Assembly: GCF_002715865.1 (NCBI RefSeq)
Contig: NZ_CP017696.1
Span: 1,054,001-1,118,000, forward strand
DNA: 64,000 nucleotides
Source: Bifidobacterium asteroides DSM 20089
GTDB lineage: Bacteria > Actinomycetota > Actinomycetes > Actinomycetales > Bifidobacteriaceae
Reading direction: 5' to 3'
Shown here: in pieces, positions 2,541 to 57,033 of the stretch
Layout: each line of letters starts with the position of its first letter
Numbering within the stretch: position 1 is the stretch's first letter
Translations under genes and position numbers: made by a program
The notes under the pieces: model-generated
What the model was told of the DNA's origin: nothing
The model's input: the letters and a program-made list of their open reading frames with translations, nothing else
Databases searched by the model: none

Positions 2541-4340
2541 TCACATAGGCTGCTTCTTTCGAACCACAGGGGCAATATTCAGTTCTACATTCATGCTGGC
2601 GAGTTGCTGTTCGTGTCTGACAAGGTTTATTTTAGTGAATGTGAAAAGCGTATCGGCAGTTATCGGCTTATCATCTTTCGCTATAACAATAACGACACGA
2701 CGGGGTTTCGTCTCATATTTCTGAAGGTCAACACCGCCTGGTGCGATTTCCTTAATCTTCTCTTCGAGAAGCTTCTGTGCTTTCTCGTTGGTTCGCAGCA
2801 TTTCCGTTGAAACAAGAGCTTGAGCCAGCAGATGACTTGCTGGAGCAGAAGATGATACGTTTTTAACATGTACGAATACGCCATGAGGCAATAAAACATC
2901 ACAGGCTTCGATCCCTGAACCATGGTCTTCAGGTCGGATAAGCTGCTGGTCAAGACAGAGTCCGCCTAGTCTACGTGAGAGCTGTTTGTTGTAATTTAAT
3001 TCAGCATTTGCCTTCTTTTGAGCATTCCCATCTTCCGGTATTTCATATATAGGCCAATTAGGAAGGTCATCAAAGTATGGCCCACGATCAAAGATTTTTT
3101 TTACTTGTCTTTGAAGAGTAGTAATGTAATCGCTGTCCATGACATACCAACGATTATTTTGTAGAAAATACCTCTTGTTATTGATGGTTTTCTGAAATGT
3201 AAGCCACTTCTTAAGAGGGATTTTTGAACTGCTAACATCTGAATCGTCGGGACTTTTAAAAAGTATAATATACATTTTTTGGAGTCTACGTAATCGCTCC
3301 TTCTCATCTACTTCTAGAAGCGGTTTAAGGATATTGTTTAATGTAGGTAGGTAATCATAATGCCGTCTATCTCCAGTACCAAATATCTTAAAACTGCCGA
3401 CCTGCCCGAAATCATCAATATTTTCGTAGGGGTACGAAAGAGCCACTAAGTCACTCTTTTCCCCGATAGCTTCAATGAGAAGCTGATCGAGCTTGTTTTT
3501 CATTGACTTGTTTTTTACCAATGAAAAATGCTCTAGTGAAGCAAGTTCAGAACTCACGGGTTTCCGGTCAAGCACTGCCTTGATTTGCCCCAAGTTAATT
3601 AATAAGTTTTCCGGTGACTTAGAAAGAGGAATATTTAACGAGTCCGCCCCTCTGACTTTTATTGGTTTTTTAGAGTGACCAATACCCTCTATGTATGCGT
3701 CGGTAACAAGCCTTGTTGAAAAATCACCGAGCTCCTCAAACCCAAAACTTCTGAGTCTGGCACCAGAAGGAATCGTTGAACGAACCATTTCAGGTCTCTC
3801 ATCGAGAGTTGTTTTGCTAAGAACATTTAAACCGTCAAGTTTTGCACACCTAATTGCTACACGTAACCCAAACCTAGAATCTACGTATTTAGGTTCAAGC
3901 ATCTGAAAACCCATTCCAAAGGTTATCGCCCAAGCCGAAAAAGAAGTCACTTTCTTACCGGCCTTGGCCGAATCGTTGTCGTTGCCTGACTTAGTTTCTG
4001 ATACTGATTCAGTTTCATCTACATATGGAATAATGAGAACTGCTGAAGCTGTGGAATTCCCCACTCTGAGTTCTTTTTGAGTAAGCCCTTTCACAGTATC
4101 GGTCCACTTTGCTTGATCATGATCTACGGTGCTCCAGTAAAGATAAGCCTCTGTTTCCGCAACATAGACAACCTCTTCACTATTGTTATATTCGTCGTCA
4201 CCTGACTGCTGGTATTTAGCACGTATCGCGGCATCATATGAGGGCAAACCTATGAGACGGTACAACGTCATACGAGTTTCTGTGCTGGGCTTCCTTGCCA
4301 ATCTGTGTTCCCCCTTCAGCCTCGCCAGAGATTTATTCAT
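2541..4340 (-). CDS. TIGR04141/DUF6119-like sporadically distributed protein, candidate defence protein
   Basis: A 599-residue soluble protein resembling the sporadically distributed TIGR04141 (DUF6119) family, recognised from overall layout and its C-terminal block. Around residues 478-511 there is a cysteine-aspartate pair (C480, D481), then after a short hairpin H491-V-K493 and an S-S-rich segment ending SHLLAQALVS. The D...(E/H)xK spacing recalls a PD-(D/E)XK nuclease core, but that reading is inference. The gene is AT-rich compared with its neighbours and sits alone between a duplicated transpeptidase end and the intact gene, so horizontal acquisition is likely. Family members tend to occur near restriction-type genes, but no partner is present here. 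No signal peptide or membrane helix is seen. Confidence 0.7.
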   Translation of the reverse strand: MNKSLARLKGEHRLARKPSTETRMTLYRLIGLPSYDAAIRAKYQQSGDDEYNNSEEVVYVAETEAYLYWSTVDHDQAKWTDTVKGLTQKELRVGNSTASAVLIIPYVDETESVSETKSGNDNDSAKAGKKVTSFSAWAITFGMGFQMLEPKYVDSRFGLRVAIRCAKLDGLNVLSKTTLDERPEMVRSTIPSGARLRSFGFEELGDFSTRLVTDAYIEGIGHSKKPIKVRGADSLNIPLSKSPENLLINLGQIKAVLDRKPVSSELASLEHFSLVKNKSMKNKLDQLLIEAIGEKSDLVALSYPYENIDDFGQVGSFKIFGTGDRRHYDYLPTLNNILKPLLEVDEKERLRRLQKMYIILFKSPDDSDVSSSKIPLKKWLTFQKTINNKRYFLQNNRWYVMDSDYITTLQRQVKKIFDRGPYFDDLPNWPIYEIPEDGNAQKKANAELNYNKQLSRRLGGLCLDQQLIRPEDHGSGIEACDVLLPHGVFVHVKNVSSSAPASHLLAQALVSTEMLRTNEKAQKLLEEKIKEIAPGGVDLQKYETKPRRVVIVIAKDDKPITADTLFTFTKINLVRHEQQLASMNVELNIAPVVRKKQPM

Positions 4341-10067: not shown

Positions 10068-13000
10068 ATGCATCTGGTTTCCCGTCTGCGTCGTGCATCG
10101 GCGACGACGATCGTCCTGCTGGGTCTGCTTGCGGGCCTGGGCATCGCATCCGCCCAAGCTGACGCTCCTATCCTTGATCGTCAGACCCCTCGCGTATCTG
10201 ACGGGACCTCCGCCACTCTCCCCAACAACGCAACCAGCACCCCACTTTCCTCACCTTCACCAATACAAACCACCACACCATTAAGCACCACGCCAGGCAC
10301 CCCGTCACCAGCCACCCCGTCACCGCCGACGGGAACACCTGACAGCGCGGGCCCCTCTCCGGCCAAGCCATCCGACAAGACGGACGAGCAGGCCGCGTAC
10401 ACGGTGCGCTTCGACCCGGCCGACGGCAGCACGCCCACCCAGGAGACCGTGAAGACCGGCGCCCTCGCCACGCCCCCACAGCAGAACCCGCAACGTCCCG
10501 GCTTCCGGTTCGGCGGGTGGACCCATGACGGCCGGCCCTACGACTTCCGGACCCCCGTCCTGCAGGACACGACCCTGAAAGCCCAATGGTCGAAGACCAC
10601 GGACTGGACGCTGAGCCCGGACCACGGGCCCGCCACCGGCACCAGGCTGACCATCAAGCCACCCAGCCCGCAGGAGCCCTGCTATGTCAACGTCCAAGCC
10701 GCAGGAGAGCAGATCCTCGGCCTGACCGGCGACGGCCGCATCCACACCTGGACACAGGACCACACACCCAAGCAGGTGCCCTCCCCCGCCCGGGCTCCCG
10801 CCGGGTTCCGTTACCTGCAGGCCGCGGCAGGCAGCCGCCGGCAGGCCGCAATCGGATCCGACCAGCGGATCTACACCTGGGACAGCCAACAACCCGCGCC
10901 CACGCTCCTCGACACCGGCCCAGACACCCTGTTCACCAGCATCAGCATCAACGACGACCGGCTCCTGGCCGTGGACCGCCAAGGACAGGTCCACACCTAC
11001 CAGGCCAGCGACGCCGACAGCCGGAATCCGAAACCGAAACCCCTGGAGCAGGCCACGACCGGCCTGCCCGGACAGGCGCAGGCCGTCCTTGCCGTAGCCT
11101 CCGCCAGCCGGACCCTCATCGTGGACGCGGACGGGCAAGCCTGGGCATGGAATATGAACAACACGGTAAAAGCCAAGCCTGAACGTATCAGGCAGGAACG
11201 GGGCACGCGAACCGTCCAGGCCCAGGCCCTCAACCAGGGATTCCTCCTCCTGGACGCGAACGGGCAAGCCTGGTACCTGGCCGACAGCACAACAAAACCG
11301 ACATCCGTCAGCCTGCCGGAAGGCATGAAAGCCGGCCTGATCACCACCAACAAGGACCAGGCCATCATCACCGACAAGGAGGGCCGCGTCTGGGCATGGA
11401 AGCCCGGCGGAACCCCCGTCCGGGCGGACAACAGCAGCCAGCCATACACGCAGGCCGTCCTTGCAGACGGCAGGATCACCGCCGTCAGCAGGCAGGGCAG
11501 CATGTTCACGTGGGGCCTGGACGGGCAGGGCCGGCCCGGCAAGCCCGTCAGGCGCGACACCATCTCCGAGTCAACCCTGCAATCAGCCAGCATGGACGGC
11601 CAGCCGCTGACACCCGACAAGACCGGCGACGCCTGGCAGACGGAGGTTCCCGCACGCCAACCCGGACAAGCCACCATCACCATCACCGGCAAAGAAGACA
11701 ACCGGCCCTTCACAAGAAGCCTTACGTACACGGTCGACCAGCCGCTGACACGTGACGTCGAGCCACGATCCACATTTACGGTCCGATTCGACACGGGCGG
11801 AGGAAACCCCGGACCAGCAGACCAGCATTTCCCCGCCCCGTACGGCAGGGTGAAGCGGCCCTCCCCCGACCCTATGCGCGAAGGCTATCTGTTCGACGGG
11901 TGGTTCACCGGGCAGGCCGCCTACGATTTCAGCAGGCCCGTCGACAAGGACCTGACCCTGACCGCCAAGTGGACCGAAAGCCGGAACAGCACGTGGAGCA
12001 TCAGCCCGGACAAGGGCAGCCAGCTGGGCAACGAGGCCACGACCATCACCCCGCCGGACAGCGCCAGGCGAGGCATCAGGTTCAGCCAGATCAGCGGATC
12101 AAAATACAACGGTGACCCTACCTATGGTTTTTCCTTGGCGGTGGGCAGCGACGGGAACGCCTACGCCTGGGGATACAACAGGTATGGCCAGCTCGGCGAC
12201 GGGACGACCACCACCCGGACCACGCCGGTCAAGGTCAGCAAGCCTGTAGGCGCGCCGACGGATTTCACCTATGTGCAGGTCAGCGGTGGATACTACCATT
12301 CGCTGGCCATCGGCAGCGACGGATACGCATACGCCTGGGGACGCAGTGACTCTGGCCAGCTCGGCAACAACACCACAACAGCATATTCAACTGTTCCTGT
12401 GCGCGTGCGCGACCCCAGCAGCCCCACTGATAAGAACAAAGGGCTGAAAGCCATACAGGTCAGCGCCGGAGGCGATCATTCGCTCGCCGTGGGCAGCGAC
12501 GGGAACGCCTACGCCTGGGGAAGCAACGGCAGTGGCCAGCTTGGCGACGGGACGTACACCACCCGGACTACGCCGGTCAAGGTCAGCAAGCCTGCAGACG
12601 CGCCGACGAACTTCACCTACGTGCAGGTCAGCGGCGGATACAATGATTCGCTGGCCATCGACAGCGACGGGAACGCCTACGGCTGCGGAGACAACACCTA
12701 CGGCAAGCTGGGCGACGGGACAAGCACCAGCCGGGCTATGCTGGTCAAGGTGAGCAAGCCTGCAGACGCGCCGACGGATTTCATCTACATGCAGATCAGC
12801 GCCGGAGCCGGTCATTCGCTGGCCGTGGGCAGCGACGGATACGCCTACGCCTGGGGACGCAGTGACTCTGGCCAGCTCGGCAACAACACTAGCGGCTTCG
12901 GTGCGCATTCGTCTGTTCCTGTGCGCGTGCGCGACCCCAGCAGCCCCACTGACGAGAACAAAGGGCTGAAAGCCACACAGGTGAGTGGCGGAGGGGATCA

Positions 13001-13628
13001 TTCGCTCGCCGTGGGCAGCGACGGATACGTATACGCCTGGGGAATCAACAACTATGGCCAGCTCGGCAACAACACCACAAGCGGCTCCACTGCGAATCCT
13101 GTTCCTGTACACGTGCGCGACCCTGCCAATTCCGCTGACACGAGCAAAGGGCTTCAAGCCACACAGGTCAAAGTCGGATACGATTTTTCATTGGCCATGG
13201 GCAGCGACGGGAACGCCTACGCCTGGGGTGCCAACGGCAATGGCCAGCTCGGCAACGACACCACAAACACCAAGTTGGTTCCGGTGCCGGTGGTGTTCAA
13301 CCTGCAGCTGGTAATCACTGGTGTCAAGTTCGACACCGATTCCGGCACGAACCTGACGCGCGGCGATGGCAGCAGCGTGATCGTGACTACGCCTGCGCAC
13401 GCGCCTGGCATGGTCACGGTCAGCGTGAACTACACGCTGGGCGGCACACCCCAAAAACCGGACACCTCCCTCAGATACACGTACACGCCTTTAGGCGTGC
13501 TCCCCAAAGCCGGAGGGGAAGGCATCCTGCTGGCCCTGGCCACCGGCATGACCGGCATGGGCGGGGTCCTGGCATCCCGCCGCCACAGAGGAGAAACACG
13601 CCAACTGTTTCACGCTTCGCACGAGTAA
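10068..13628 (+). CDS. RCC1-repeat surface protein A (in frame, poly-G tract lost)
   Basis: A 1,186-residue cell-wall protein. A signal peptide (residues 1-34, ending AQADA) is followed by a Pro/Ser/Thr linker, a first InlB-type B repeat at about 111-177 ([10 protein letters not shown]...GGWTHDGRPYDF...LKAQW), an RCC1-like region at about 205-535, a second B repeat at about 570-640, and a run of RCC1 blades at about 684-1080 ([21 protein letters not shown]). The C-terminus has LPKAG near 1145, a hydrophobic helix and an RRHRGE tail, as for a sortase substrate. Where paralogues carry poly-G, this copy reads CTT GAT CGT CAG and stays in frame, and the out-of-frame TAG of the other copies is TAT here. 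Adhesion or ligand binding is inferred. Confidence 0.88.
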   Translation: MHLVSRLRRASATTIVLLGLLAGLGIASAQADAPILDRQTPRVSDGTSATLPNNATSTPLSSPSPIQTTTPLSTTPGTPSPATPSPPTGTPDSAGPSPAKPSDKTDEQAAYTVRFDPADGSTPTQETVKTGALATPPQQNPQRPGFRFGGWTHDGRPYDFRTPVLQDTTLKAQWSKTTDWTLSPDHGPATGTRLTIKPPSPQEPCYVNVQAAGEQILGLTGDGRIHTWTQDHTPKQVPSPARAPAGFRYLQAAAGSRRQAAIGSDQRIYTWDSQQPAPTLLDTGPDTLFTSISINDDRLLAVDRQGQVHTYQASDADSRNPKPKPLEQATTGLPGQAQAVLAVASASRTLIVDADGQAWAWNMNNTVKAKPERIRQERGTRTVQAQALNQGFLLLDANGQAWYLADSTTKPTSVSLPEGMKAGLITTNKDQAIITDKEGRVWAWKPGGTPVRADNSSQPYTQAVLADGRITAVSRQGSMFTWGLDGQGRPGKPVRRDTISESTLQSASMDGQPLTPDKTGDAWQTEVPARQPGQATITITGKEDNRPFTRSLTYTVDQPLTRDVEPRSTFTVRFDTGGGNPGPADQHFPAPYGRVKRPSPDPMREGYLFDGWFTGQAAYDFSRPVDKDLTLTAKWTESRNSTWSISPDKGSQLGNEATTITPPDSARRGIRFSQISGSKYNGDPTYGFSLAVGSDGNAYAWGYNRYGQLGDGTTTTRTTPVKVSKPVGAPTDFTYVQVSGGYYHSLAIGSDGYAYAWGRSDSGQLGNNTTTAYSTVPVRVRDPSSPTDKNKGLKAIQVSAGGDHSLAVGSDGNAYAWGSNGSGQLGDGTYTTRTTPVKVSKPADAPTNFTYVQVSGGYNDSLAIDSDGNAYGCGDNTYGKLGDGTSTSRAMLVKVSKPADAPTDFIYMQISAGAGHSLAVGSDGYAYAWGRSDSGQLGNNTSGFGAHSSVPVRVRDPSSPTDENKGLKATQVSGGGDHSLAVGSDGYVYAWGINNYGQLGNNTTSGSTANPVPVHVRDPANSADTSKGLQATQVKVGYDFSLAMGSDGNAYAWGANGNGQLGNDTTNTKLVPVPVVFNLQLVITGVKFDTDSGTNLTRGDGSSVIVTTPAHAPGMVTVSVNYTLGGTPQKPDTSLRYTYTPLGVLPKAGGEGILLALATGMTGMGGVLASRRHRGETRQLFHASHE

Positions 13629-13675
13629 GACAGGACAGGCGGCGTATCAATCCCCCCACCCCCGGCCTTCAACGA

Positions 13676-13740
13676 GGGCGCACGGAGGAATGTCACATTC
13701 AAGGCTTATCCCCAGAGAAGCCGACACTCCTCTTGCGCCT
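13676..13740 (+). terminator. Long stem-loop after gene A
   Basis: GGCGCACGGAGGAATGTC pairs with GACACTCCTCTTGCGCC across a loop containing AAGGCTTATCCCCAGAGAAGCC. Related stem-loops with compensating differences follow copies B, C and D. No strong T-tract follows, so it may stabilise the mRNA end rather than, or as well as, terminate transcription. Confidence 0.65.
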
Positions 13741-13954
13741 CCACCACCATACTACCGTCGACTGCTATTGACAGGAATAGAAAGCAAGTGTGCATGCCCC
13801 GCCTCTGCCCTTAACAGGGATAAACTCGGGCAGACCGATTAAGGAGCATAGAACCCCCAAGTCCGCTCGGTTTTCGTCTGTGCTCCCGGTTTCGGATAAT
13901 TGCTGGAAACAAACGCTTTTCCTCAACCAAAAATCCATTGTCGTCGGTGAATGA

Positions 13955-14153
13955 CTTGGCTTGTGAGTTATAGGCGAGCTGGGTGGTAGGGTGAAAAGCG
14001 GGGAATGTCGAGAAGACGACTGGCTTTCGTCTTGGCTCCTGCAACGTAACGCAGAGCTGGTGTTGAGCTATGGGCGGCTTTCCGACAAGAAGAACTTTGG
14101 ATAGGCAGGCGGTGTTGATACCGCTTGGTGTTTGGTGAAGGGGTTTTGGTTTC
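13955..14153 (+). promoter_or_regulatory. Conserved leader of surface-protein gene B
   Basis: This block is homologous to the leaders of copies A and C, with GGGTGGTAGGGTGAAAAGCG shared with copy C. It ends in GAAGGGG upstream of the ATG at 14154. The rest of the 13.6-14.15 kb gap holds the stem-loop of gene A and no gene. Confidence 0.45.
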
Positions 14154-17100
14154 ATGCTTCTGGTTTCCCGTCTGCGTCGCATCATGGCGATGATGATCGT
14201 CCTGCTGGGCCTGCTGGCAGGCCTGGGCGTCGCATCCGCCCAGGCGGACGCTCCCATGCTCACCGGGGGGGGGGGGGTCGTCAGACCCCTCGCGTAGCTG
14301 AGCAAACCCCCGGCATTCTCCCCAGCAACGCAACCAGCACAACACTGCCCACACCATCACCGCTGACACCTTCCTCGCCGTTAAGCACCACCACACCGAA
14401 ACCGGAGACCCCGTCATCGCAGACGGGCACGCCTGACGACACAGGATCCGCTTCAACCAAGCCATCCGATAAGACGGATGATCAAACTTCGCATGTGGTG
14501 GGCTTCGACCCCGCCGACGGCAGCACACCCACACATGCAAGCGTGAAAACCGGCACCCTCGTCACCCTCCCCTCACAACAGAACCCGCAGCGTCCCGGCT
14601 TCCGGTTCGACGGGTGGACACTCGACGGCCGGCCTTTCGACTTCCGGACCCCCATCCTCCAGGACACCACCCTGAAAGCCCAGTGGACCAAAGCCACGGA
14701 CTGGACACTGAGCCCGGACCACGGACCCGCCACCGGCACTAGGCTGACCATCAGCCCGCCCGACAGGCAGGAACCTCAATTCGCCAGCGTCCAAGCCGCC
14801 GGAGAGCAGTTTATCGGCCTGACAGGCGACGGGCACATCCACACATGGACGCAAGGCAATACACCCAACCAAGTTGCTCTCCCCGCCCATGCCGCTGACG
14901 GGCTCCACAACCTGCAGGCCGCAGCCGGCAGCCGATGGCAGGCAGCACTCGGATCCGACCAGCACATCTACACCTGGACCAGCGGACAAACAACGCCCAC
15001 CATCCTCGACGCCAGCCAGAACACCAGGTTCACCAGCATCAGCATAAACGACGACCGGCTCCTGGCCGTGGACGAGAAAGGACAGGTCCACGCCTTCCAA
15101 AACAGCCAGGCCGACAGCCAGAATCAGAATCTGAAGCCCGCCGAACAGGTGACGCTCAGCCTGCCTGGAAAGACGCAGGCCGTCACCGCCGTCGCCTCCG
15201 GCAGCCAGGCTCTCATCGTGGACGCGGACGGCCAGGCCTGGATCTGGGATGCGAGCAATACCGGCAACATCAAACCTGAACCCATCAAACAGGACCCGGG
15301 AATGCGCACCGTCCAAGCCGCTGCCCTCGACCAAGGATTCCTCCTCCTGGACGCAGAAAGGCAGATCCATTACCTGGCCGACAACACGACCAGCATCACA
15401 GCGGTCAGCCTGCCGGAAAGCAAGAAAGCCAGCCGGATCAGCGCCAACGATAGCCAGGCAATCATCACCGACACAGAAGGCCACCTCTGGGCCTGGAAGC
15501 CCGGCGAAACACCCATGCGTGCCGACAACGGGAACCAGCACTACATACAGGCGGCCGAAGCCGACGGCAGGATCACCGCCATAGACGGGCAAGGCAACTT
15601 GTTCACATGGGGCCTGAACCCTCACAATGATCAGGGCCAGCCAGCAAGAATCGCCACTATAACAACGTTCACACTGGAATCAGCCAGCATGAGCGGCCAG
15701 GCATTGACGCTCAGCAAAACAGACGACACCTGGCAGGTAGAAGCTTCAGCCCACGAGCCCGGACAAGCAACCATCACTATCACCGGCAGACAAGGCGGCC
15801 AGTCCTTCAGCAGCAGCCTCAAGTACACCGTCGACCAGCCGCTATTAAGGGATATCCAACAGGATTCCACCCACACGGTCACCTTCGATACAGCCGGAGG
15901 AAGCCAGGCACCCCAACCCCAGCAAGTCGACTACCCGTACGGTAGGGTGAAGCGGCCCTCCCCCGACCCGATGCGTGCTGGTTACCAGTTCTACGGATGG
16001 TTCATCGACAATGTCGCCTACGACTTCAGCAAGCCTGTAACCAAGGACCTCAGACTTACTGCCCATTGGTCGTCAAACAAGTGGACAATAAGCCCTGATA
16101 CGGGTAGCCAAATCGGCGGTGAAAGGACCACCATTACCCCACCAACCAATACAAACGGTATCAAGTTCAACCAGATCAGCAGCTCAAACACAGGTTCATT
16201 CTCACTGGCCGTGGGCAGCGACGGAAACGCTTACGCCTGGGGAGATAACACGTATGGCCAGCTTGGCGACGGGACGGCCAACAACTCCAGATATACGCCG
16301 ATCAGGGTGAAGACGCCTGATCGCAAGACGTATCCGGACCTGCCGGCGGATTTCACCTATGTGCAGGTCAGCGCCGGAGGCCGGCATTCACTGGCCGTGG
16401 GCAGCGACGGATACGCATACGCCTGGGGAAACAACAACAATGGCCAACTCGGCAACAACACGAAAACGAATTCGTATGTTCCTGTGCGCATACGCGACCC
16501 CGGCAGCCCTACTGACGAGAGCAGAGGACTGAAAGCCATACAGGTCAGCGCCGGATACTGGCATTCGCTGGCCCTGAGCAACGACGGATACGCATACGCC
16601 TGGGGATACGACTGGTATGGCCAACTCGGCAACAACACCAGCGGTTCCAGTGAGTATTCGCCTTTCCCGATACTCGTGCGCAATCCCGACAGCCCCACTG
16701 ATGAAAGCATGGGGCTGAAAACCATACAAGTCAGCGCAGGAAACTTGCATTCGCTCGCTTTGGACAGCAATGGATATGTGTACGCCTGGGGATGGAATAG
16801 CTATGGTCAGCTCGGCGATAACACCAACGACATCTCCGAGGATTCACATTCGGCTTTTCCTGTGCGCGTACGCGACCCCGCCAATCCCTCCGAAACGAAT
16901 ATGGGGCTGAAAGCCATACAGATCAGCGCCGGATACGATCATTCGATGGCCGTGGGCAGCGACGGATACGCCTACGCCTGGGGATGGAACGTCAAGGGCC
17001 AACTCGGCAACAACACCATCAGCGACAGCTACAGTGGGAATCCTGTTCCTGTGCACGTGCGTGACCCCGCTAACCCTACTGATACGAGCAAAGGACTGAA

Positions 17101-17755
17101 AGCCACACAGGTGAGCGCCGGATACTGGCATTCGCTGGCCGTGGGCAGCGACGGATACGCCTACGGCTGGGGATACAACTGGTATGGTCAGCTCGGTAAC
17201 AACACGAAAACGGATTCGTATGTTCCTGTGCCCGTGCGTGACCCCGCCAACCCCACTGACACAAACAAAGGACTGAAAGCCACACAAATCAGCTCCGGAT
17301 ACTGGCATTCGATGGCCGTTGGCAGCGAAGGATATGTGTACGCCTGGGGAAACAACGGAAACGGTCGGCTCGGCGACGGCACTACCAACGGCAAGTTAGC
17401 TCCTGTGTCGGTGGTGTTCAACCTGCAGCCGGTAATCACCGCAGCCAGGTTCGACGCCAGCCCCGGCATGCATCTGATTCCTGTCAGCAACAGCAACAGC
17501 GTCACAGCGCTCACGCCCGCACATCAGCCAGGCACGGTCACGGTCAGCGTGGACTACACGATGGGCGGCTCAGGAAACACGCTGACCGACACATCCCTCA
17601 GATACACATACACGCCTGCAGGCGTGCTCCCCCAGGCCGGCGGTGAGGGCATTCTGCTGGCCCTGGCCACCGGCATGACCGGCATGGGCGGGGTGCTGGC
17701 CTCACGCCGCCACAGGAAAGAAACGCAGCGTTTCCTACATACTTCACACGAGTAA
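14154..17755 (+). CDS. RCC1-repeat surface protein B, phase-variable, OFF as read
   Basis: Second paralogue. The ATG at 14154 starts a signal peptide ([14 protein letters not shown]... ending AQADA) that runs into thirteen G at 14265-14277. With 13 G the frame reaches TAG at 14295-14297 after 47 codons. With 14 or 11 G the signal peptide would join the long downstream frame, which has no stop until 17755, giving about 1,200 residues. The downstream frame holds the same order as copy A: B repeat, RCC1-like region, second B repeat, RCC1 blades, LPQAG, hydrophobic helix and basic tail. The intact downstream frame argues that selection keeps it and that the OFF state is reversible. Confidence 0.87.
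14265..14277 (+). repeat. Poly-G(13) phase-variation tract, gene B
   Basis: Thirteen G start exactly on a codon boundary after ACC, codon 38 of the signal-peptide frame. The downstream CGT CAG ACC frame needs a tract length of 3n+2, so 13 is out of frame by one base. Slipped-strand mispairing would toggle it. Confidence 0.85.
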
Positions 17756-17797
17756 GAAGGCTGGCAGGTGGGCCAACCCCCGTCCACCCGCCTCAAC

Positions 17798-17866
17798 GGG
17801 GGCGCATGGAGGAAAGTGTCATACAAGGCTCTATCCCCAAGGAGCCGACACTCCTCCTGCGCCCCC
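17798..17866 (+). terminator. Long stem-loop after gene B
   Basis: GGGGGCGCATGGAGGAAAGT and the following GTC pair with GACACTCCTCCTGCGCCCCC; the loop again contains AAGGCT...CCCAAGGAGCC. It is homologous to the elements after copies A, C and D. Confidence 0.65.
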
Positions 17867-18062
17867 ACCACACTTCTATCAGCGGAGATACGGGCAAGCT
17901 GCTCTTTTCCAGTCTGAGACAAATATAGACGTGGCCAGACTTGCCAAGGTCAGATGGCTCCAAGTCAGATCAGTTTCAGCACTTGCTTCATGACTTGGCA
18001 TAATTGCTTTGAACAACCGCATTCCCCCAACCTAGGAGAATCATTGTCACCAAGCTGCAGCC

Positions 18063-18259
18063 TCTGGCTTGTGTGTTGTTTGCTGACCGGGTGGTAGGGT
18101 GAAAAGCGGGGAATGTCGAGAAGGCGACTGGCTTCGGTCATGATTCGCATAATCCGATGCAGGGCTGGCATCGATAGGCAGAACAGCTTTTCGACTGGAA
18201 GAATTTTAATATGCAAACGGTGTTGGTTCCGTTTGGTGTTGGTAAGGGGTCTACGAGTG
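18063..18259 (+). promoter_or_regulatory. Conserved leader of surface-protein gene C
   Basis: Homologous to the leaders of copies A and B, sharing TGGCTTGTG, GGGTGGTAGGGTGAAAAGCG and GAATGTCGAGAAG with copy B. It ends near a GGTAAGGGG segment before the ATG at 18260. The remaining bases between 17756 and 18259 hold the gene B stem-loop and no gene. Confidence 0.45.
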
Positions 18260-21200
18260 ATGCATCTGGTTTCCCGTCTGCGTCGCATCATGGCTATGAT
18301 GATTGTCCTGCTGGGCCTGCTGGCAGGCCTGGGCGTCGCATCCGCCCAGGCGGACGCTCCCATACTCACCGGGGGGGGGGGGGGGTCGTCAGACCCCTCG
18401 CGTAGCTGAGCAAACCCCCGCCACTGTCCCCGGCAACGCATCAAATATCCCACTTTCCTCGCCATCGCCGATACAAGCCACCCCGCCATTAAGCACCACG
18501 CCAGGCACCCCGTCATCGACGACGGGAACACCTGACAGCGCGGGCTCCGTTACGGCCAAGCCATCCGACAAGGCGGATGCGCAGGCCGCGCACACGGTGC
18601 GCTTCGACCCCGCCGACGGCGGCACACCCACACAGGCGAGGGTGAAAACCGGCACCCTCGCCACTCCCCCACAAGAAAACCCTGTGCGTGAGGGCTTCCG
18701 GTTCGACGGGTGGACCCATGACGGCCAGCCCTACGACTTCCGGACCCCTATCATCCAGGACATAACATTGAAAGCCCAGTGGTCGAAGACCACGGACTGG
18801 ACGCTGAGCCCGGAGCACGGACCCGCCTCCGGCACCCGGCTGACCATCAGCCCGCCCAGCCCGCAGGAACCCTACTACGTCAACGTCCAAGCCGCCGGAG
18901 AGCAGATCCTCGGCCTGACCGGCGACGGCCACATCCACACCTGGACACAGGACAGCATTCCCGAACAGGTGCCCGCCCCCGCCCGGGCTGCAGACGGGTT
19001 CCACTACCAGCAGGTCGCGGCAGGCAGCCGCCGGCAGGCCGCATTGGGATCCGACCGGCACATCTACACCTGGACCAGCCAACAGCCCGAACCCGTGATC
19101 CTCGACACCGGCCCAGACACCCTGTTCACCAGCATCAGCATCAACAATGATCTGTTGCTGGCCGTGGACCGGCAGGGCCAGGTTCACGCCATCCAAGACA
19201 GCCAGGACCCGAACCCGAAACCCGCCGAACAAGCCGAGACTGGCCTGCCCGGAAAGGCGCAAGCCGTCACCGCCGTAGCCTCCGGCAGCCGGACCCTCAT
19301 CATGGACGCGGACGGGCAAGCCTGGATCTGGGACACGAGCAACACACGCAACGTCAAGCCCGAACGCATCAAGCAGGACCCGGGCATGCGCACCGTCCAA
19401 GCCCAATCCCTCAACCAGGGGTTCCTCCTCCTGGACGAGAACGGACAGACCCGGTACCTGGCCGACAGCACAACCAATCCTACAGCCGTCAGCCTGCCGG
19501 GCGGCGTGCAGGCCAGCCAGATCACCACCGGTAATGGCCAGGCCACCATCACCGATACGGACGGCCACATCTGGGCCTGGAAGCCCGACAAAACGCCCAT
19601 CCGCGCGGACAACAAGGGACAGGTCTACGTGCAGGCCGTCAAGGCCGGCGGCAGGATCACCGCCATCAGCAGGCAGGGCAGCATGGTCACGTGGAACCTG
19701 GACCCTCAAAACAATCTAGACAGGCCAGCCAGACTCGACACCTCCCAGGCGTCCATCCTGGAATCAGTCAGCTTGGACGGCCAGCCGCTCAGACTAATCA
19801 AGAACAACGACTCATGGCAGGCGTACATACCTGCACACAAGCCGGGGCCAGCCACCATCACCATCGCCGGCAGGCAGGACGGCCAGCCCTTCACCAGGAG
19901 CCTTACGTACACCGTCGACCAGCCGCTGACCAGAGACGCCGAACCAAGATCCACATTTACCGTCCACTTCGACACAGGCGGAGGAAAACCCGAACCAGCA
20001 GACCAGAGTTTTTCCACCATAACCGGCAGGGTGAAGCGGCCCTCCCCCGACCCGACGCGCCAAGGCTTCCTGTTCGACGGATGGTTCATCGGGCATGCCG
20101 CGTACGATTTCAGCAAACCCGTCGACAAGGATCTTACCCTGACCGCCAGGTGGACACCGCAAAGCCGGAACAGCACGTGGGGCATCAGCCCCGACAGGGG
20201 CAGCCAGCTGGGCAGGGAACCCACCACCATCACCCCGCCAGACTCCGCCAGCCGGGGCATCAGGTTCAGCCAGATCAGCGGAGGAATAAACTCCAACTAT
20301 GGTTTTTCCTTGGCAGTGGGCAGCGACGGCAACGCCTACGCCTGGGGATACAACTACAATGGCCAGCTCGGCGACGGGACAAGCACCGAGCGGCATGCGC
20401 CGGTCATGGTGTGGATGCCCGACCGGAAGACGTACCCGGACCTGCCAGCGGATTTCACCTACGTGCAGGTCAGCGCCGGAGGCCAGCATTCGCTGGCCCT
20501 GGGCAGCGATGGAAACGCCTACGCCTGGGGGTACAACGTCCAAGGCCAGCTCGGCGACGGGACGGGCACCGGCCGGAATACGCCGGTCAGGGTGAAGACG
20601 CCTGACCGCAAGACGTATCCAGACCTGCCAGCGGATTTCACCTACGTGCAGGTCAGCGCCGGAGGCCAGCATTCGCTGGCCCTGGGCAGCGATGGGAACG
20701 CCTACGCCTGGGGGTACAACGTCAATGGCCAGCTCGGCGGCGGGACGAGCAACGACTATCGGCGTACGCCGGTCAGGGTGGAGACGCCTGACCGCAAGAC
20801 GTATCCAGACCTGCCAGCGGATTTCACCTACGTGCAGGTCAGCGCCGGACGGTATCATTCGCTGGCCCTGGGCAGCGACGGGAACGCCTGGGCATGGGGA
20901 AGCAACTTCGAAGGCCAGCTAGGCGACGGGACGGGCACCAACCGGAATACGCCGGTCATGGTGAAGACGCCCGACCGCAGCACGTACCCGGACCTACCAG
21001 CGGATTTCACCTACGTGCAGGTCAGCGCCGGATGGTTGCATTCGCTGGCCCTGGGCAGCGATGGGAACGCCTGGGCATGGGGACGCAACACCAATGGCCA
21101 GCTAGGCGACGGGACATCCGGCACCGACCGGACTGCGCCGGTCAGGGTGAAGATGCCTGACCGCAACACGTACCCGGACCTGCCCAAGGACTTCACCTAC

Positions 21201-21857
21201 GCGCAGGTCAGCGCCGAAGGCGATCATTCGCTGGCCGTGGGCAGCGACGGAAACGCCTGGGCATGGGGATGCAATTTTTATGGCCCACTCGGCAACAACA
21301 CCACCAACTGGCAGGGTGACGCGAATCCTGTTCCTAAGCGCGTGCGCGACTCCGCCAACCCCACCGACAAGAGCAAAGGACAGCAAGCCACACAAGTCAG
21401 CGGCGGATACCATTATTCGCTGGCCCTGGGCAGCGACGGCAACGCCTACGCCTGGGGATACAACAGCTCTGGCCAGCTCGGTGACGGCACCACAAACGAC
21501 AAGTCGGTTCCTGTGCCGGTGGCGTTCAACCTGCAGCTGGTGATCACCGGCGTCAGATTCGACCAGACCCCCGTATCAGGCCTGACCCGTGGCGATGGCA
21601 ATAGCGTCAGCGTGCTCACGCCCGCGCACGCGCCGGGCACGGTCATGGTCAGCGTGGACTACACGCTGGGCGGCGCACCCCAAACGCCGAACACTACCCT
21701 CAGATATACGTACCTGCCAGCAGGCGTGCTCCCCCAGGCCGGCGGGGAAGGCATCCTGCTGGCCCTGGCCACCGGCATGACCGGCATGGGCGGAGTCCTT
21801 GCATCCCGCCGCCACCGAAGGGAACAACACCAGCTGCTTCACGCTTCACTCGAGTAA
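18260..21857 (+). CDS. RCC1-repeat surface protein C, phase-variable, OFF as read
   Basis: Third paralogue. The signal-peptide frame from ATG 18260 ([14 protein letters not shown]..., nearly identical to copy B) meets fifteen G at 18371-18385 and stops at TGA 18407-18409 after 49 codons. Loss of one G, or gain of two, would join it to the downstream frame ending at 21857, giving about 1,198 residues. That frame has the two B repeats, an N-terminal RCC1-like region, RCC1 blades dominated by a near-identical 61-residue unit with [20 protein letters not shown], and LPQAG with helix and basic tail. The absence of internal stops suggests the gene is periodically expressed. Confidence 0.87.
18371..18385 (+). 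repeat. Poly-G(15) phase-variation tract, gene C
   Basis: Fifteen G at the same codon boundary as in gene B. The length is one more than the in-frame value of 14, so the product truncates just after the signal peptide. Confidence 0.85.
20451..21270 (+). repeat. Tandem 183/186-bp coding repeats in gene C
   Basis: The anchor GATTTCACCTA recurs at 20451, 20634, 20820 and 21003, with a variant at 21189, giving a period of 183 or 186 bp (61-62 codons). Each unit is one RCC1 blade. Several units are close to identical at DNA level, so unequal recombination could change blade number without breaking the frame. Confidence 0.85.
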
Positions 21858-21901
21858 GAGCGGCCGGGCGGCGTATCAATCCCCCGCCCCCGGCCTTTAC
21901 A

Positions 21902-21974
21902 GGGGGAGCAGGGAGGGAAAGTGCCACTGAAAGCTCAAATCCCAAGAGAGCCGACACTTTCCTCCTGCGCCCCC
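21902..21974 (+). terminator. Long stem-loop after gene C
   Basis: GGGGGAGCAGGGAGGGAAAG and the next TG pair with CACTTTCCTCCTGCGCCCCC; the loop is AAGCTCAAATCCCAAGAGAGC-like. It belongs to the same family as the elements after copies A, B and D. The rest of 21858-22393 has no gene; its 3' part is the leader of copy D. Confidence 0.65.
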
Positions 21975-22393
21975 ACCACGCTTCCGCAGGCAGAAGCCGA
22001 GGGCAGGCATGCACCGCCCCCACCCCCCTGGGAGAGGAGGAAGCACGGCCTGACCGGCCAGGAGGCTTAACAGCCCCTAGCCAGCCTGACCGCTGTTCAT
22101 CTCCAAACCCCGAATAATGACTATAAGCAGCCACTCTTCCAAAGCCGAAAGAATCAATGTTCCCGTAAAGCTGGACGGGATTTGGCCGATGCCTATAGGT
22201 TCATATGGTATGATTTTTGTGGGGATGTTGAGGGGTCTTTCGTCTTCTGACTGCATCAGCGCAATTGGCGCCAGATCAGCCTTGAATGGCCGAGAGACTC
22301 TTCTGAAAGTAAGACGTAGCAGTGGTGTTGGCCGGCCGTTGGGGAAGAACAGATGGCAGGCAAGCCTGTTGTTGGGGAAGAGGTTTGTAAGTC

Positions 22394-25300
22394 ATGCGTA
22401 TAAGCTCCCGATTGCGTTCGCTGTCGTTCGCGATTATTCTTATGCTGCTCCAGTCAGGCTTGGGCATGGTCGAAGCCGAAGCTGAAACCGACGCTGGTAC
22501 TGAATCTATGTTTATCGGGGGGGGGGGGGGTCGTCAGACCCCTCGCGTAGCTAAGCAAACCCCCGCCACTCTTCCCAGCAGCACAACCGGCACGCCGCTT
22601 CCCTCGCCCTCGCCTCTGACAACTGCCTCCCCCCTGAGCCCCACGACATCAAGCCCAAACACCCCGTCATCGCCGACAAATAGTCCAAGCAGTGCAGACT
22701 CCGCTTCAACCAGGCCATCCCGGCAGACAGATGATCAGGCCGCGCACACGGTGCGCTTCGATCCGGCCGACGGAAGCAAACCCACCCAAACGACCGTGAA
22801 AACCGGAACCCTCGCCTCACCTCCGCAAAAGAACCCGCAACGTGAGGGCTCCCGGTTCGACGGGTGGACACGTGATGGCCAGCCCTTCGATTTCCAGACC
22901 CCCATCCTCCAGGACACGACCCTGAAAGCCCAGTGGTCGAAAACCACGGACTGGACGCTGAGCCCGAACCACGGACCCTCCTCCGGCGCCCGCCTGACCC
23001 TCAGCCCGCCCGACAAGCAGGAGCCCTACTACACGAGCATCCACACGGCAGACAGCCAGTTTATCGGCCTGACAGGCGACGGCAACATCTACATTTGGAC
23101 ACAAGACGGCACACCAAAACAGGTTCCTCTCCCTGCCCAGGCTCCCGACGGATTCCACTACCTGCAGGCCGCAGCCGGCAGCCAATGGCAGGCGGCCCTC
23201 GGATCCGACCAGCACATCTACACCTGGACCAGCCAACAGCCCACGCCCGCCATCCTCGACACTGATCGGAACATCAGGTTCACCAGCATCAGCACAAGCA
23301 GCAACCGGCTGCTGGCCGTGGACCAGCAGGGCCGTGTCCACAATTTCCAGGCCAGCCAGGCCGACAGCCGGAACATGAAACCCACTGAGCAATCCACGAT
23401 CAGCCTGCCCGGGCAAGCTCAGGCGACACTCGCCGTCGCCTCCCCCAGCCGGACACTCATCGTGGACGCGGACGGGCAGGCATGGTCATGGAAGCCAGGC
23501 CAGGCAGGAAACTCGAAGCCGTCACCCATCATGCAGGATCAGAGTGTGCGCATCATCCAGACTGCAGCCCTCAACCAGGGGCTGCTCCTGCTGGACGCTG
23601 ACGGGCAGACCCGGTACCTGGCCGACAGCACGACCAGCGCCAAAGCCGTCAACCTGCCAGAAAGCACGAAAGCCAGCCGGATCAGCGCCAGCAATGACCA
23701 AGCCATAATCACAGACAAGGACGGGCACCTCTGGTCCTGGAAGCCAGGCGAGGCGCCCATGCGCGCAGACAGCGGGAACCAGCACTACATGCAAGCAGTC
23801 CGCATCGACAACGAAATCGCCGCCCTAGACAGGCAGGGCAGCCTATATCAGTGGAGCATCGACACCCACGGCCAGCCCGGCAAGCCGGCAAAAATCGACT
23901 CCACCACAGCTCCCACCCTGGAATCAGCCAGCCTGGATGGCCAAGACTTGACACTCAGCAAAACCGGCGATACGTGGCAGACAGATGTCCCCGCCCGCAA
24001 TCCCGGTCTGGCCGTCATCACCATCACCGGCAGGCAGGACGATAAGCCCTTTACCAAGAGCCTTGACTACACGGTCGACCAGACCCTGACCAGAGCCGTC
24101 CAGCCTGGCTCCACCTACAAGGTCAGCTTCAGCACAGCAGGAGGAAGCCAGGCACCCCAACCCCAGCAGGTCACCTATCCATTCGGGAGGGTGCAACGCC
24201 CCTACCCAGACCCGACCCGCAGCGGCTACCAGTTCGACGGATGGTTCATCGGCAACGCCGCCTACGACTTCAGCAAGCCCGTCACCGACAACCTCACCCT
24301 CACCGCCCACTGGACCTACAAAGACCCCAACAACACCTGGAGAATCAACCCCGACACGGGTAGCCAGCTCGGCCACGAAACCACCACCATCACCCCGCCA
24401 ACCAGCCAGGGGATCAGATTCAACCAAACCAGCAGCTCAAGTAACGTAAAGGACTTCTCGTCAGCTGCATTTTCCTTGGCTGTAGGCAGCGACGGGAACG
24501 CCTACGCCTGGGGAAACAACATGTATAGCCAGCTCGGAAATGGAACGACCACAGATCAAGCTATGCCCGTGCAGGTGAAAAAACCTGCAGGTGCACCAGC
24601 GAACTTCACCTACGTGCAGATCAGTGCCGGAGCCAGTCATTCTTTGGCCATAGGCAGCGACGGGTACGTATATGCCTGGGGAAATAATAACCACGGACAG
24701 CTCGGCAACAATACCAAATCGAATTCCTCAATCCCCGTGCGCGTCTATGGTGCAAGCAACTCCGGCGAGGGTCTGAAAGCAGTCCAGGTCTGCGCAGGAA
24801 TGTGGAACTCCATGGCGCTGGGCATCGACGGGACAGTGTTCACATGGGGAAGCCAAGCTAGAGGATATGACACCACAAGTGGCACTACCCCACAAACCAT
24901 TCCCACAACGGTGAAGGACTCTTCAGACCCGAGCGGAGTCTTCCACGCCGTGCAGATAAGCACCAGCTGGTCTTTCAACCTTGCAATCGGCCAGGACGGG
25001 TACGTGTACGTCTGGGGCTACAACACCAACGGCCAGTTCGGTAACAACACAAGCGACGGAATTCATACAACTACTGTGCATTCAACGCCCAGCCGCATAC
25101 CCAATCCTGCATACCCCCAGGATACGAGCAGAGGGTGGAGAGCCTTACAGGTGAGCGCCGGAGGATGGCATGCACTGGTCATCGATGAGGAAAATAAAAT
25201 ATGGGCATGGGGATTCAACCGGAATGGTCAGATTGGCAACGGCTCAAGTAGCGACTATAACGCAAATCCTCTTCCCAAGCAGGTACGGATTAATCCGAAT

Positions 25301-25987
25301 GACTCAAGCACTGGTCTGAAAGCCACACAGGTGAGCGCCGGAATCTATCACTCGATGGCCATAGACACCAATGGGAGCGTTTGGGCATGGGGACAGAACG
25401 ATAATGGTCAGGTCGGTGACGGTACCACGAATGATCGCCTTTCTCCCGTCAAGGTCTTCGACTCCGCACAATCCACAAGCTCGGCAGGCCCATGGCTGAA
25501 AGCCGTTCAATTAAACGCAGGATATAAGCATTCACTAGCGATAGACCCGAGGGGGTACGCAAGAGCGTGGGGAAACAACTTTTCTGGTCAGCTTGGTAAC
25601 GGAATAAGCAACAATGACGATAGCGCGAATCCTATTCCCGTGCCGGTGATGTTCAATCTGCAACCTGTGATCACCGGGGCCATATTCGAAGCCAGCCCAG
25701 GCACGAATCTGACTCCTGTAAGCAACAGCGATAGCGTCACCGTGCTCACGCCCCCGCACCAGCCGGGCCCGGTCACAGTTAGCGTGGACTACACGCTTGG
25801 TGGCAAAGCCCAAAGCCCCGTCACCTCCCTCAGATACACGTACACGCCTGCAGGCGTGCTGCCCAGGGCTGGCGGGGAAGGCATCCTGCTGGCCTTCGCT
25901 ACGGGCATGACAGGCATGGGCGGGGTCCTGGCATCACGCCGCCACCGAAAAGAAATACGCCAGCTGCTTCACGCTTCGCACGAGTAA
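22394..25987 (+). CDS. RCC1-repeat surface protein D, phase-variable, ON as read
   Basis: Fourth paralogue, 1,197 residues in one open frame from ATG 22394, preceded by GGGGAAGAGG. The signal peptide differs from the other three (MRISSRLRSLSFAIILML..., ending near AEAE). Fourteen G at 22517-22530 are in frame and encode Gly4-5 before RQTPRVAKQ. The order then matches the other copies: Pro/Ser/Thr linker, B repeat, RCC1-like region, second B repeat (about 24115-24320), more diverged RCC1 blades, LPRAG, hydrophobic helix and RRHRKE tail. Its blades are the least like the other copies, so it is probably the oldest diverged member. It is one of two copies that can make full-length protein in this sequence. 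Confidence 0.88.
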   Translation: MRISSRLRSLSFAIILMLLQSGLGMVEAEAETDAGTESMFIGGGGGRQTPRVAKQTPATLPSSTTGTPLPSPSPLTTASPLSPTTSSPNTPSSPTNSPSSADSASTRPSRQTDDQAAHTVRFDPADGSKPTQTTVKTGTLASPPQKNPQREGSRFDGWTRDGQPFDFQTPILQDTTLKAQWSKTTDWTLSPNHGPSSGARLTLSPPDKQEPYYTSIHTADSQFIGLTGDGNIYIWTQDGTPKQVPLPAQAPDGFHYLQAAAGSQWQAALGSDQHIYTWTSQQPTPAILDTDRNIRFTSISTSSNRLLAVDQQGRVHNFQASQADSRNMKPTEQSTISLPGQAQATLAVASPSRTLIVDADGQAWSWKPGQAGNSKPSPIMQDQSVRIIQTAALNQGLLLLDADGQTRYLADSTTSAKAVNLPESTKASRISASNDQAIITDKDGHLWSWKPGEAPMRADSGNQHYMQAVRIDNEIAALDRQGSLYQWSIDTHGQPGKPAKIDSTTAPTLESASLDGQDLTLSKTGDTWQTDVPARNPGLAVITITGRQDDKPFTKSLDYTVDQTLTRAVQPGSTYKVSFSTAGGSQAPQPQQVTYPFGRVQRPYPDPTRSGYQFDGWFIGNAAYDFSKPVTDNLTLTAHWTYKDPNNTWRINPDTGSQLGHETTTITPPTSQGIRFNQTSSSSNVKDFSSAAFSLAVGSDGNAYAWGNNMYSQLGNGTTTDQAMPVQVKKPAGAPANFTYVQISAGASHSLAIGSDGYVYAWGNNNHGQLGNNTKSNSSIPVRVYGASNSGEGLKAVQVCAGMWNSMALGIDGTVFTWGSQARGYDTTSGTTPQTIPTTVKDSSDPSGVFHAVQISTSWSFNLAIGQDGYVYVWGYNTNGQFGNNTSDGIHTTTVHSTPSRIPNPAYPQDTSRGWRALQVSAGGWHALVIDEENKIWAWGFNRNGQIGNGSSSDYNANPLPKQVRINPNDSSTGLKATQVSAGIYHSMAIDTNGSVWAWGQNDNGQVGDGTTNDRLSPVKVFDSAQSTSSAGPWLKAVQLNAGYKHSLAIDPRGYARAWGNNFSGQLGNGISNNDDSANPIPVPVMFNLQPVITGAIFEASPGTNLTPVSNSDSVTVLTPPHQPGPVTVSVDYTLGGKAQSPVTSLRYTYTPAGVLPRAGGEGILLAFATGMTGMGGVLASRRHRKEIRQLLHASHE
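22517..22530 (+). repeat. Poly-G(14) phase-variation tract, gene D
   Basis: Fourteen G begin at codon 42 on a codon boundary and satisfy the 3n+2 rule, so the signal peptide is joined to the long frame. Confidence 0.85.
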
Positions 25988-56662: not shown

Positions 56663-57033
56663 CCTTTATGGTAGGTACAGCGGTTCGTTAAAGTTTCATT
56701 GCATTGAGCGGCCAAACCTGCCAGACACTCTTCAAAAACAATAGCACCAATGGTGATTGAAATATATCAGCATCAGAACCACTAGCAGTTATGACCTAAT
56801 GTTCAAGTACCTGTCCACAAATCTAAAGAGGAAAAGGTAACTCAACGCATTGACAAATCGAGCGAACCACCAGTATCTGCCACACATTCATAGAAAGAAG
56901 AAAAAACTCACTTATTAATTCGATCAGCCATCGGCAATACGGAATCTCTGCGGTTCCCCTAATAAGACATCTGCAGCCCCCCCCCCCCCGCAGCCTCTCT
57001 GGCAAAACAAAACACTATCTCCCAGAACCTGGC
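56663..57033. other. Intergenic region with a poly-C(13) tract beside the IS
   Basis: No gene is supportable. A run of 13 C follows CTGCAG at about 56977-56989 and is followed by GCAGCC. Read on the minus strand it is poly-G, like the tracts in the surface-protein genes, but no signal peptide or long frame is attached here. The IS end begins about 45 bp further right, so a former gene may have been broken. Confidence 0.5.

Follow-up and report, generated by a model that had tools for sequence, protein, structure and literature searches.

Simple-sequence contingency loci, in which an intragenic homopolymer turns a gene stochastically ON or OFF, are familiar from Neisseria, Campylobacter and Mycoplasma agalactiae. 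The closest described counterpart in the genus Bifidobacterium is found in B. breve UCC2003, where slippage on G tracts in bbr_0113 and bbr_1889 switches sortase-dependent pili; tract length varies within the population, strains brought into frame show pilus-like structures, and the distribution of tract lengths shifts in mice (PMC9187656, which names Mycoplasma agalactiae and Campylobacter as examples; statements taken from this and the other cited papers rest on parts of their text). Honeybee bifidobacteria carry a family of RCC1 surface proteins with 7–24 genes per genome (PMC4449606), and 19 copies are present in B. asteroides PRL2011 (PMC3447821). Here we describe four genes of this kind in a 64,000-nucleotide stretch of Bifidobacterium asteroides DSM 20089 (hereafter the window; positions 1054001–1118000 of a genome assembled as a single contig of 2.19 Mb), three of which carry a long G tract behind the signal peptide.

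The four RCC1/InlB-repeat surface-protein genes, copies A to D, lie head to tail at window positions 10068–25987 (Table 1). Copies A and D in full, like the parts of B and C that are open behind the tract, score above the Pfam cut-offs for RCC1, RCC1_2, WD40_RLD and Flg_new; RCC1 repeats and Listeria-Bacteroides (Flg_new) repeats occur in one protein, and among proteins of solved structure the family profile matches members of the RCC1 fold, UVR8 and RCC1 included. The hydrophobic N termini are putative signal peptides, judged by hydropathy and by eye, and the C termini bear an LPxTG-like anchor, a hydrophobic stretch and a basic tail, with the anchors LPKAG, LPQAG, LPQAG and LPRAG (A to D) beginning 42 residues before the end. 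Tandem clusters of many copies are found in genomes of the B. asteroides group, and A to D belong to the RCC1 surface protein family of honeybee bifidobacteria. A preliminary description of this stretch had reported that B, C and D carry tracts of 13, 15 and 14 G after their signal peptides, that copy A is tract-less and in frame throughout, that B and C truncate after 47 and 49 codons ahead of some 1,150 open codons, and that copy D is ON; each of these points was borne out, and the open regions of B and C were found to reach their LPQAG anchors.

We propose that this organization reflects multi-locus ON/OFF phase variation, by slippage, of cell-wall-anchored RCC1/InlB-repeat surface proteins in honeybee-type Bifidobacterium, a reading to which we assign a probability of about 0.82 on sequence evidence. 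Slippage of DNA polymerase would act on the G run that lies within the gene, just past the signal-peptide codons; depending on the length of this run, translation from the signal peptide would continue into the mature protein or meet a stop five or seven codons on. Independent switching of the members would yield cells with different surface repertoires, since it is in the RCC1 region that the members diverge most; among A to D, the identity of 200-nucleotide (nt) coding blocks ranges from about 0.42 to 0.88, with its minimum in the RCC1 part. The proteins would probably act as gut-surface adhesins or receptors, or as decoys against recognition by phages or the host, the adhesin or receptor role being a guess from anchoring and diversity. 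Slippage within a culture, expression, anchoring and the ligands of the proteins are the steps that we infer; what the sequences show is a coding homopolymer that sets the frame, stops close behind it in the wrong frames, a conserved flank, tract lengths that differ between close alleles, and off alleles that are mostly intact and constrained.

Copies in related genomes were collected by the conserved 22-nt flank that follows the tract, with up to three mismatches allowed in the genome search and up to five in fetched DNA. At the former threshold, the flank was present in 11 of 27 Bifidobacterium genomes, that of the window (G000) included. All 77 places in the other ten genomes were fetched and 76 were counted; the copy left out (L074) lies near a contig end with an unreadable signal peptide, has 12 G and is open to the anchor. 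Copies from overlapping stretches were made unique by sequence, by which cut versions were kept for L100 and L123, both of them intact in fuller stretches. Frames were assigned by hydropathy; in four close choices the signal peptides were read by eye, and the states stand.

Among the 86 distinct site copies so obtained, 78 carry at least 9 G, with lengths of 11 to 17; 19 are in frame and 59 out of frame. Length 12 accounts for 47 copies, all out of frame, followed by length 11 (15 copies, 13 in and 2 out), 13 (8 copies, 1 in and 7 out), 14 (4 copies, in), 15 (3 copies, out) and 17 (1 copy, in). Counts in and out of frame by genome were 3 and 5 in G000, 2 and 5 in G002, 1 and 2 in G010, 2 and 3 in G012, 3 and 10 in G013, 1 and 2 in G016, 0 and 1 in G019, and 7 and 5 in G024; no collected tract copy was in frame in the assemblies G020 (0 of 16), G009 (0 of 5) or G004 (0 of 5). 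The preliminary description had proposed comparing tract lengths among related genomes, and they are not uniform: 26 of 37 close pairs (at least 90% identity over at least 400 nt behind the tract) differ in length, and the closest, with 98.9% identity over 1,500 nt, sets an in-frame tract of 11 G in G002 beside an out-of-frame tract of 12 G in G009. Related loci are found mostly in named Bifidobacterium records (13 of 17 public-genome loci), including B. asteroides and the bee-dwelling species B. polysaccharolyticum, B. apousia and B. choladohabitans. The bee habitat of the B. asteroides group as a whole is described in PMC3447821 and PMC4449606.

Nearly all of the out-of-frame genes judged are intact. 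Where the fetched DNA includes the end of the open reading frame (ORF), an uninterrupted stretch of at least 900 codons leads to an LPx[A/T]G motif in 53 of 56 copies that are out of frame and in 16 of 18 that are in frame; with the fuller stretches of the two cut copies, these become 54 of 57 and 17 of 19. Median pairwise ratios of nonsynonymous to synonymous substitution (dN/dS), calculated over 51 intact first-subfamily copies, tract-less ones included and labeled on or off by frame, were 0.47 for off-off, 0.48 for on-off and 0.50 for on-on pairs; as the pairs are not independent, the medians are a description and not a test. By these sequence measures, the out-of-frame copies are not decaying. 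Among the 120 public protein matches listed out of 596, 28 lack everything before the RF(D/N)P segment that follows the switch, as would be expected if gene callers had encountered out-of-frame alleles, and incomplete contigs may add to these 28; in the same 120, the signal peptide is followed by four Gly in 38 and by five Gly in 4.

A repair background permissive of slippage is also suggested. PF00488 (MutS_V) had no match in the 27 Bifidobacterium genomes, and PF01939 (NucS) was present in 27 of 27. In Mycobacterium smegmatis, NucS leaves indels of 1–2 nt unrepaired, which the authors connect to phase variation (PMC11551767). With no MutS found and NucS homologues not expected to repair such indels, slippage on the G runs should go uncorrected, and would thus be frequent and reversible; the step is made by analogy across genera. 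The switch reading of the preliminary description, drawn from three tracts, is in this way upheld by 78 tract copies of varied length and frame in 11 genomes, by intact off genes, by near-identical genes in different states, by equal dN/dS in both states and by the missing MutS_V match.

We weighed four other explanations, of which the best placed, though unlikely, is that some full-length protein is made from alleles of any tract length, through transcriptional slippage or ribosomal frameshifting, and that tract length tunes the amount. Polymerases generally tend to slip on long G runs, and a possible hairpin, GGGGTC-GTCA-GACCCC, with 6 base pairs and a 4-nt loop, stands immediately at the edge of the run, formed by the tract end and the first 12 letters of the flank. 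All six pairs can form in 74 of 78 tract copies and in 2 of 8 tract-less ones. Folding z-scores of the tract region were not significant (−1.78 for D, −0.96 for B, 0.00 for C), so the case for the hairpin rests on conserved pairing, which is not independent of the conservation of the flank. Against production from every allele, stops stand close behind the tract in both wrong frames, after five codons in one and seven in the other, each in 77 of 78 tract copies, which suits a tight off state; transcription in B. breve drops strongly beyond the off-state stop (PMC9187656). In copy B, the flank contains the near stop of one wrong frame, the beginning of the stop of the other, and the 3′ arm of the possible hairpin.

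Slightly less likely still is that most changes of tract length come from recombination or gene conversion between copies, the identical flank being where exchange takes place. The flank is free of mismatches in 70 of 78 tract copies and has one to three of them in each of the eight tract-less copies; collection by flank inflates this conservation, and when copies were located without it, perfect flanks were seen in 6 of 9 tract copies in the window's genome and in 12 of 14 in G024, where nine start regions were picked by hand. Perfection spans all three signal-peptide types (47 of 51, 19 of 23 and 4 of 4), which were sorted by a simple motif rule with type 2 as the remainder and which are only 57–61% identical to one another over the 60 nt upstream. 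Copy D, whose signal peptide is of the different type SP3, joins it to a first-subfamily body, as exchange at the flank would allow. Yet in the two most similar pairs of unequal tract length (98.9% and 98.6% identity across the 1,500 nt downstream), the tracts are one G apart, for which single-base slippage is the simpler account.

Under the slippage reading, the conservation of the flank invites a further, tentative proposal. Third codon positions within the 22-mer are conserved to 98.5% on average and the next 19 to 73%, a drop that is partly misalignment, since these later columns are ungapped and the nearest ten average 88%. The near stops are mostly kept in tract-less copies (8 of 8 and 6 of 8) and so do not alone account for the perfection of the flank. 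It is possible, although we hold it with well under even confidence, that the G tract and flank together constitute an evolved portable switch element, comprising a slippery run, an edge hairpin perhaps promoting slippage, and a stop for either wrong frame, the DNA sequence of the whole being kept across genes with unlike signal peptides; with 8 to 16 tract copies, such an element would offer each cell hundreds to tens of thousands of possible coats.

Several observations weigh against phase variation by slippage. Equal tract lengths are found in 11 of the 37 close pairs, and 47 of 78 tracts are exactly 12 G long, including 14 of 14 CACC-type tracts in G020; this excess may reflect assembler bias or a default-off length and not free switching. 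In-frame fractions are weakly uneven among genomes (218 of 5000 permutations were as uneven). A scan of the array region for the sigma-70 consensus, other promoter types being outside its coverage, returned one match, inside gene B, against 3.4 expected. The RCC1 family of bee bifidobacteria is presented without an assigned function in the parts of PMC3447821 and PMC4449606 on which we draw.

The prevalence of exactly 12 G in many assemblies also bears on the improbable alternative that the length differences come from homopolymer sequencing or assembly error, every copy truly sharing a single in-frame length; sequencing has difficulty with G tracts of such length (PMC9187656). One such error would need to put 59 of 78 copies out of frame across 11 genomes, and would have to do so in assemblies that record unequal lengths side by side, 12 to 17 in the window's genome and 11 to 14 in G024; the perfect flank is confined to tract-bearing copies, and the genome of the window is rated 99.99% complete with 0.12% contamination. 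Least probable of all is that the out-of-frame copies are decaying pseudogenes or silent recombination donors, for while truly interrupted members exist (two ORFs in the window's genome; among tract copies G024_L110, G024_L111, G000_L044_11499, G012_L100_420 and G009_L115), nearly all out-of-frame copies are open to the anchor, off-off dN/dS equals on-on, and close relatives are found in both states.

Separately, we see no sign of phage or plasmid origin: viral contigs had no exact copy of the 22-mer, and among the 8 plasmid records listed out of 74, the RCC1 proteins were below 60% identity, none spanning 80% of copy D in one place.

Beyond the array, a motif scan of pre-located stretches put the number of RCC1-type ORFs in the window's genome at 20, spread over several loci; one of them stops a few codons early, and two others are clearly interrupted. 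In nine of the 20, a G tract immediately follows the signal peptide, namely in B, C, D and the six members listed by genome position in Table 1; four are in frame, four are out of frame, and the ninth is out of frame inside an interrupted gene. The preliminary description had counted eight on/off combinations from B, C and D; the idea of independent switches stands, and the number does not, nine tract-bearing members allowing more.

Table 1. Positions of the array features in the window and of the tract-bearing family members elsewhere in the same genome
Feature	Position	Strand	Remarks
Copy A	10068..13628	+	Signal peptide, InlB-type (Flg_new) repeats, RCC1 region; no G tract; in frame
Copy A, 22-nt flank version	10178..10199	+	One mismatch; no G tract in front
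Copy A, LPKAG anchor	13500-13514		
Copy B, signal-peptide frame	14154..14297	+	ATG at 14154; 47 codons, stop just behind tract; out of frame
Copy B, G13 tract	14265..14277	+	
Copy B, conserved 22-nt flank	14278..14299	+	
Copy B, open coding region behind tract	14278..17755	+	InlB repeats, RCC1 region, LPQAG anchor 17627-17641
Copy C, signal-peptide frame	18260..18409	+	ATG at 18260; 49 codons, stop just behind tract; out of frame
Copy C, G15 tract	18371..18385	+	
Copy C, conserved 22-nt flank	18386..18407	+	
Copy C, open coding region behind tract	18386..21857	+	InlB repeats, RCC1 region, LPQAG anchor 21729-21743
Copy D, complete open gene	22394..25987	+	In frame through G14; LPRAG anchor 25859-25873
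Copy D, G14 tract	22517..22530	+	
Copy D, conserved 22-nt flank	22531..22552	+	
Tract-bearing member	288094 (genome)		In frame
Tract-bearing member	371087 (genome)		Out of frame
Tract-bearing member	375159 (genome)		In frame
Tract-bearing member	403754 (genome)		Out of frame
Tract-bearing member	406502 (genome)		Out of frame, inside interrupted gene
Tract-bearing member	625950 (genome)		In frame

One of these members, a distant RCC1 gene (L041), has 15 G at genome positions 288094–288108 and is in frame behind another signal peptide and ahead of an unrelated flank; such a flank suggests, at the level of sequence, that tracts at the signal-peptide site arose or were kept more than once. Tracts of 18, 13 and 14 G also lie between RCC1 genes, at genome positions 618233, 622298 and 384261, where they possibly affect transcription rather than frame. 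The leader before the start codon is conserved across 55 first-type copies over about 200 nt (for example 13960–14154 in the window), with a mean conservation of 0.69–0.80 in three 60-nt blocks before the start; the leader of copy D is unlike those of B and C. The conserved leader is perhaps a shared promoter or regulatory leader.

Long G tracts are far more common than chance would have them. The window holds 19 overlapping 10-G matches, a number reached by 0 of 100 shuffles, and the genome has 23 tracts of at least 13 G against 0.42 expected for independent bases. Tracts of at least 10 G number 34, and by a simple filter 17 of the 23 inspected among them lie outside any ORF of at least 120 codons. 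The fourth long tract of the window, 13 G on the minus strand at 56977–56989, sits about 45 bases outside an insertion sequence with inverted-copy ends and a transposase ORF at 57091–58302, itself a weak match to the Mutator family below the Pfam cut-off. Elsewhere in the window, a DUF6119 protein is encoded on the minus strand at 2541–4340 (E 5e-104). Tracts of at least 10 G range from 0 (G025) to 98 (G005) per Bifidobacterium genome; with counts varying so widely, other switched gene families may exist in the genus.

Honeybee bifidobacteria carry the RCC1 family in many and highly diverse copies (PMC3447821, PMC4449606). Were many of its members phase-variable, comparisons of gene content would miss which coat a strain wears. 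If run length controls production of the full protein, the bacterium probably varies its coat at random, and the honeybee gut, a tractable host in which to watch selection act on these switches, would allow a test of whether a mutualist uses contingency loci for colonization, coexistence or phage escape.

How far, then, does this system depart from those already described? Flg_new and RCC1 domains, an LPxTG-like anchor and tandem clusters are shared with the honeybee RCC1 family (PMC3447821, PMC4449606), and the main texts of its two descriptions contain neither 'frameshift' nor 'homopolymer', nor 'phase' (PMC4449606) or 'phase varia' (PMC3447821); the main text of PMC9187656 is likewise without 'RCC1', 'asteroides' or 'hairpin'. 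No paper joining the RCC1 family to poly-G switching was found among titles and abstract openings, a search whose coverage excluded most subscription journals and bioRxiv. The preliminary description had called the arrangement undescribed, which appears to hold for the RCC1 family and fails for the mechanism, described in the B. breve pili (PMC9187656). The contingency loci of Neisseria, Campylobacter and Mycoplasma agalactiae concern other bacteria and other proteins.

The B. breve pili are of the same genus and likewise place an intragenic G tract, 9 to 12 long, near the 5′ end of a surface-protein gene, where tract length fuses a short upstream ORF (65 residues, bbr_1889a) to a long downstream one (PMC9187656). 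They differ in forming two operons, each with the tract in its first gene and a dedicated sortase gene, whereas here nine genes bear tracts and no sortase lies near the array, the two sortase domains of the genome being encoded at 272765 and 2046659. Slippage in the genus and the RCC1 family in bee bifidobacteria are thus already known, and the use of the one in the other alone appears to be new; as far as the sequences indicate, the novelty would lie in many independently switchable single genes per genome that share one conserved switch element.

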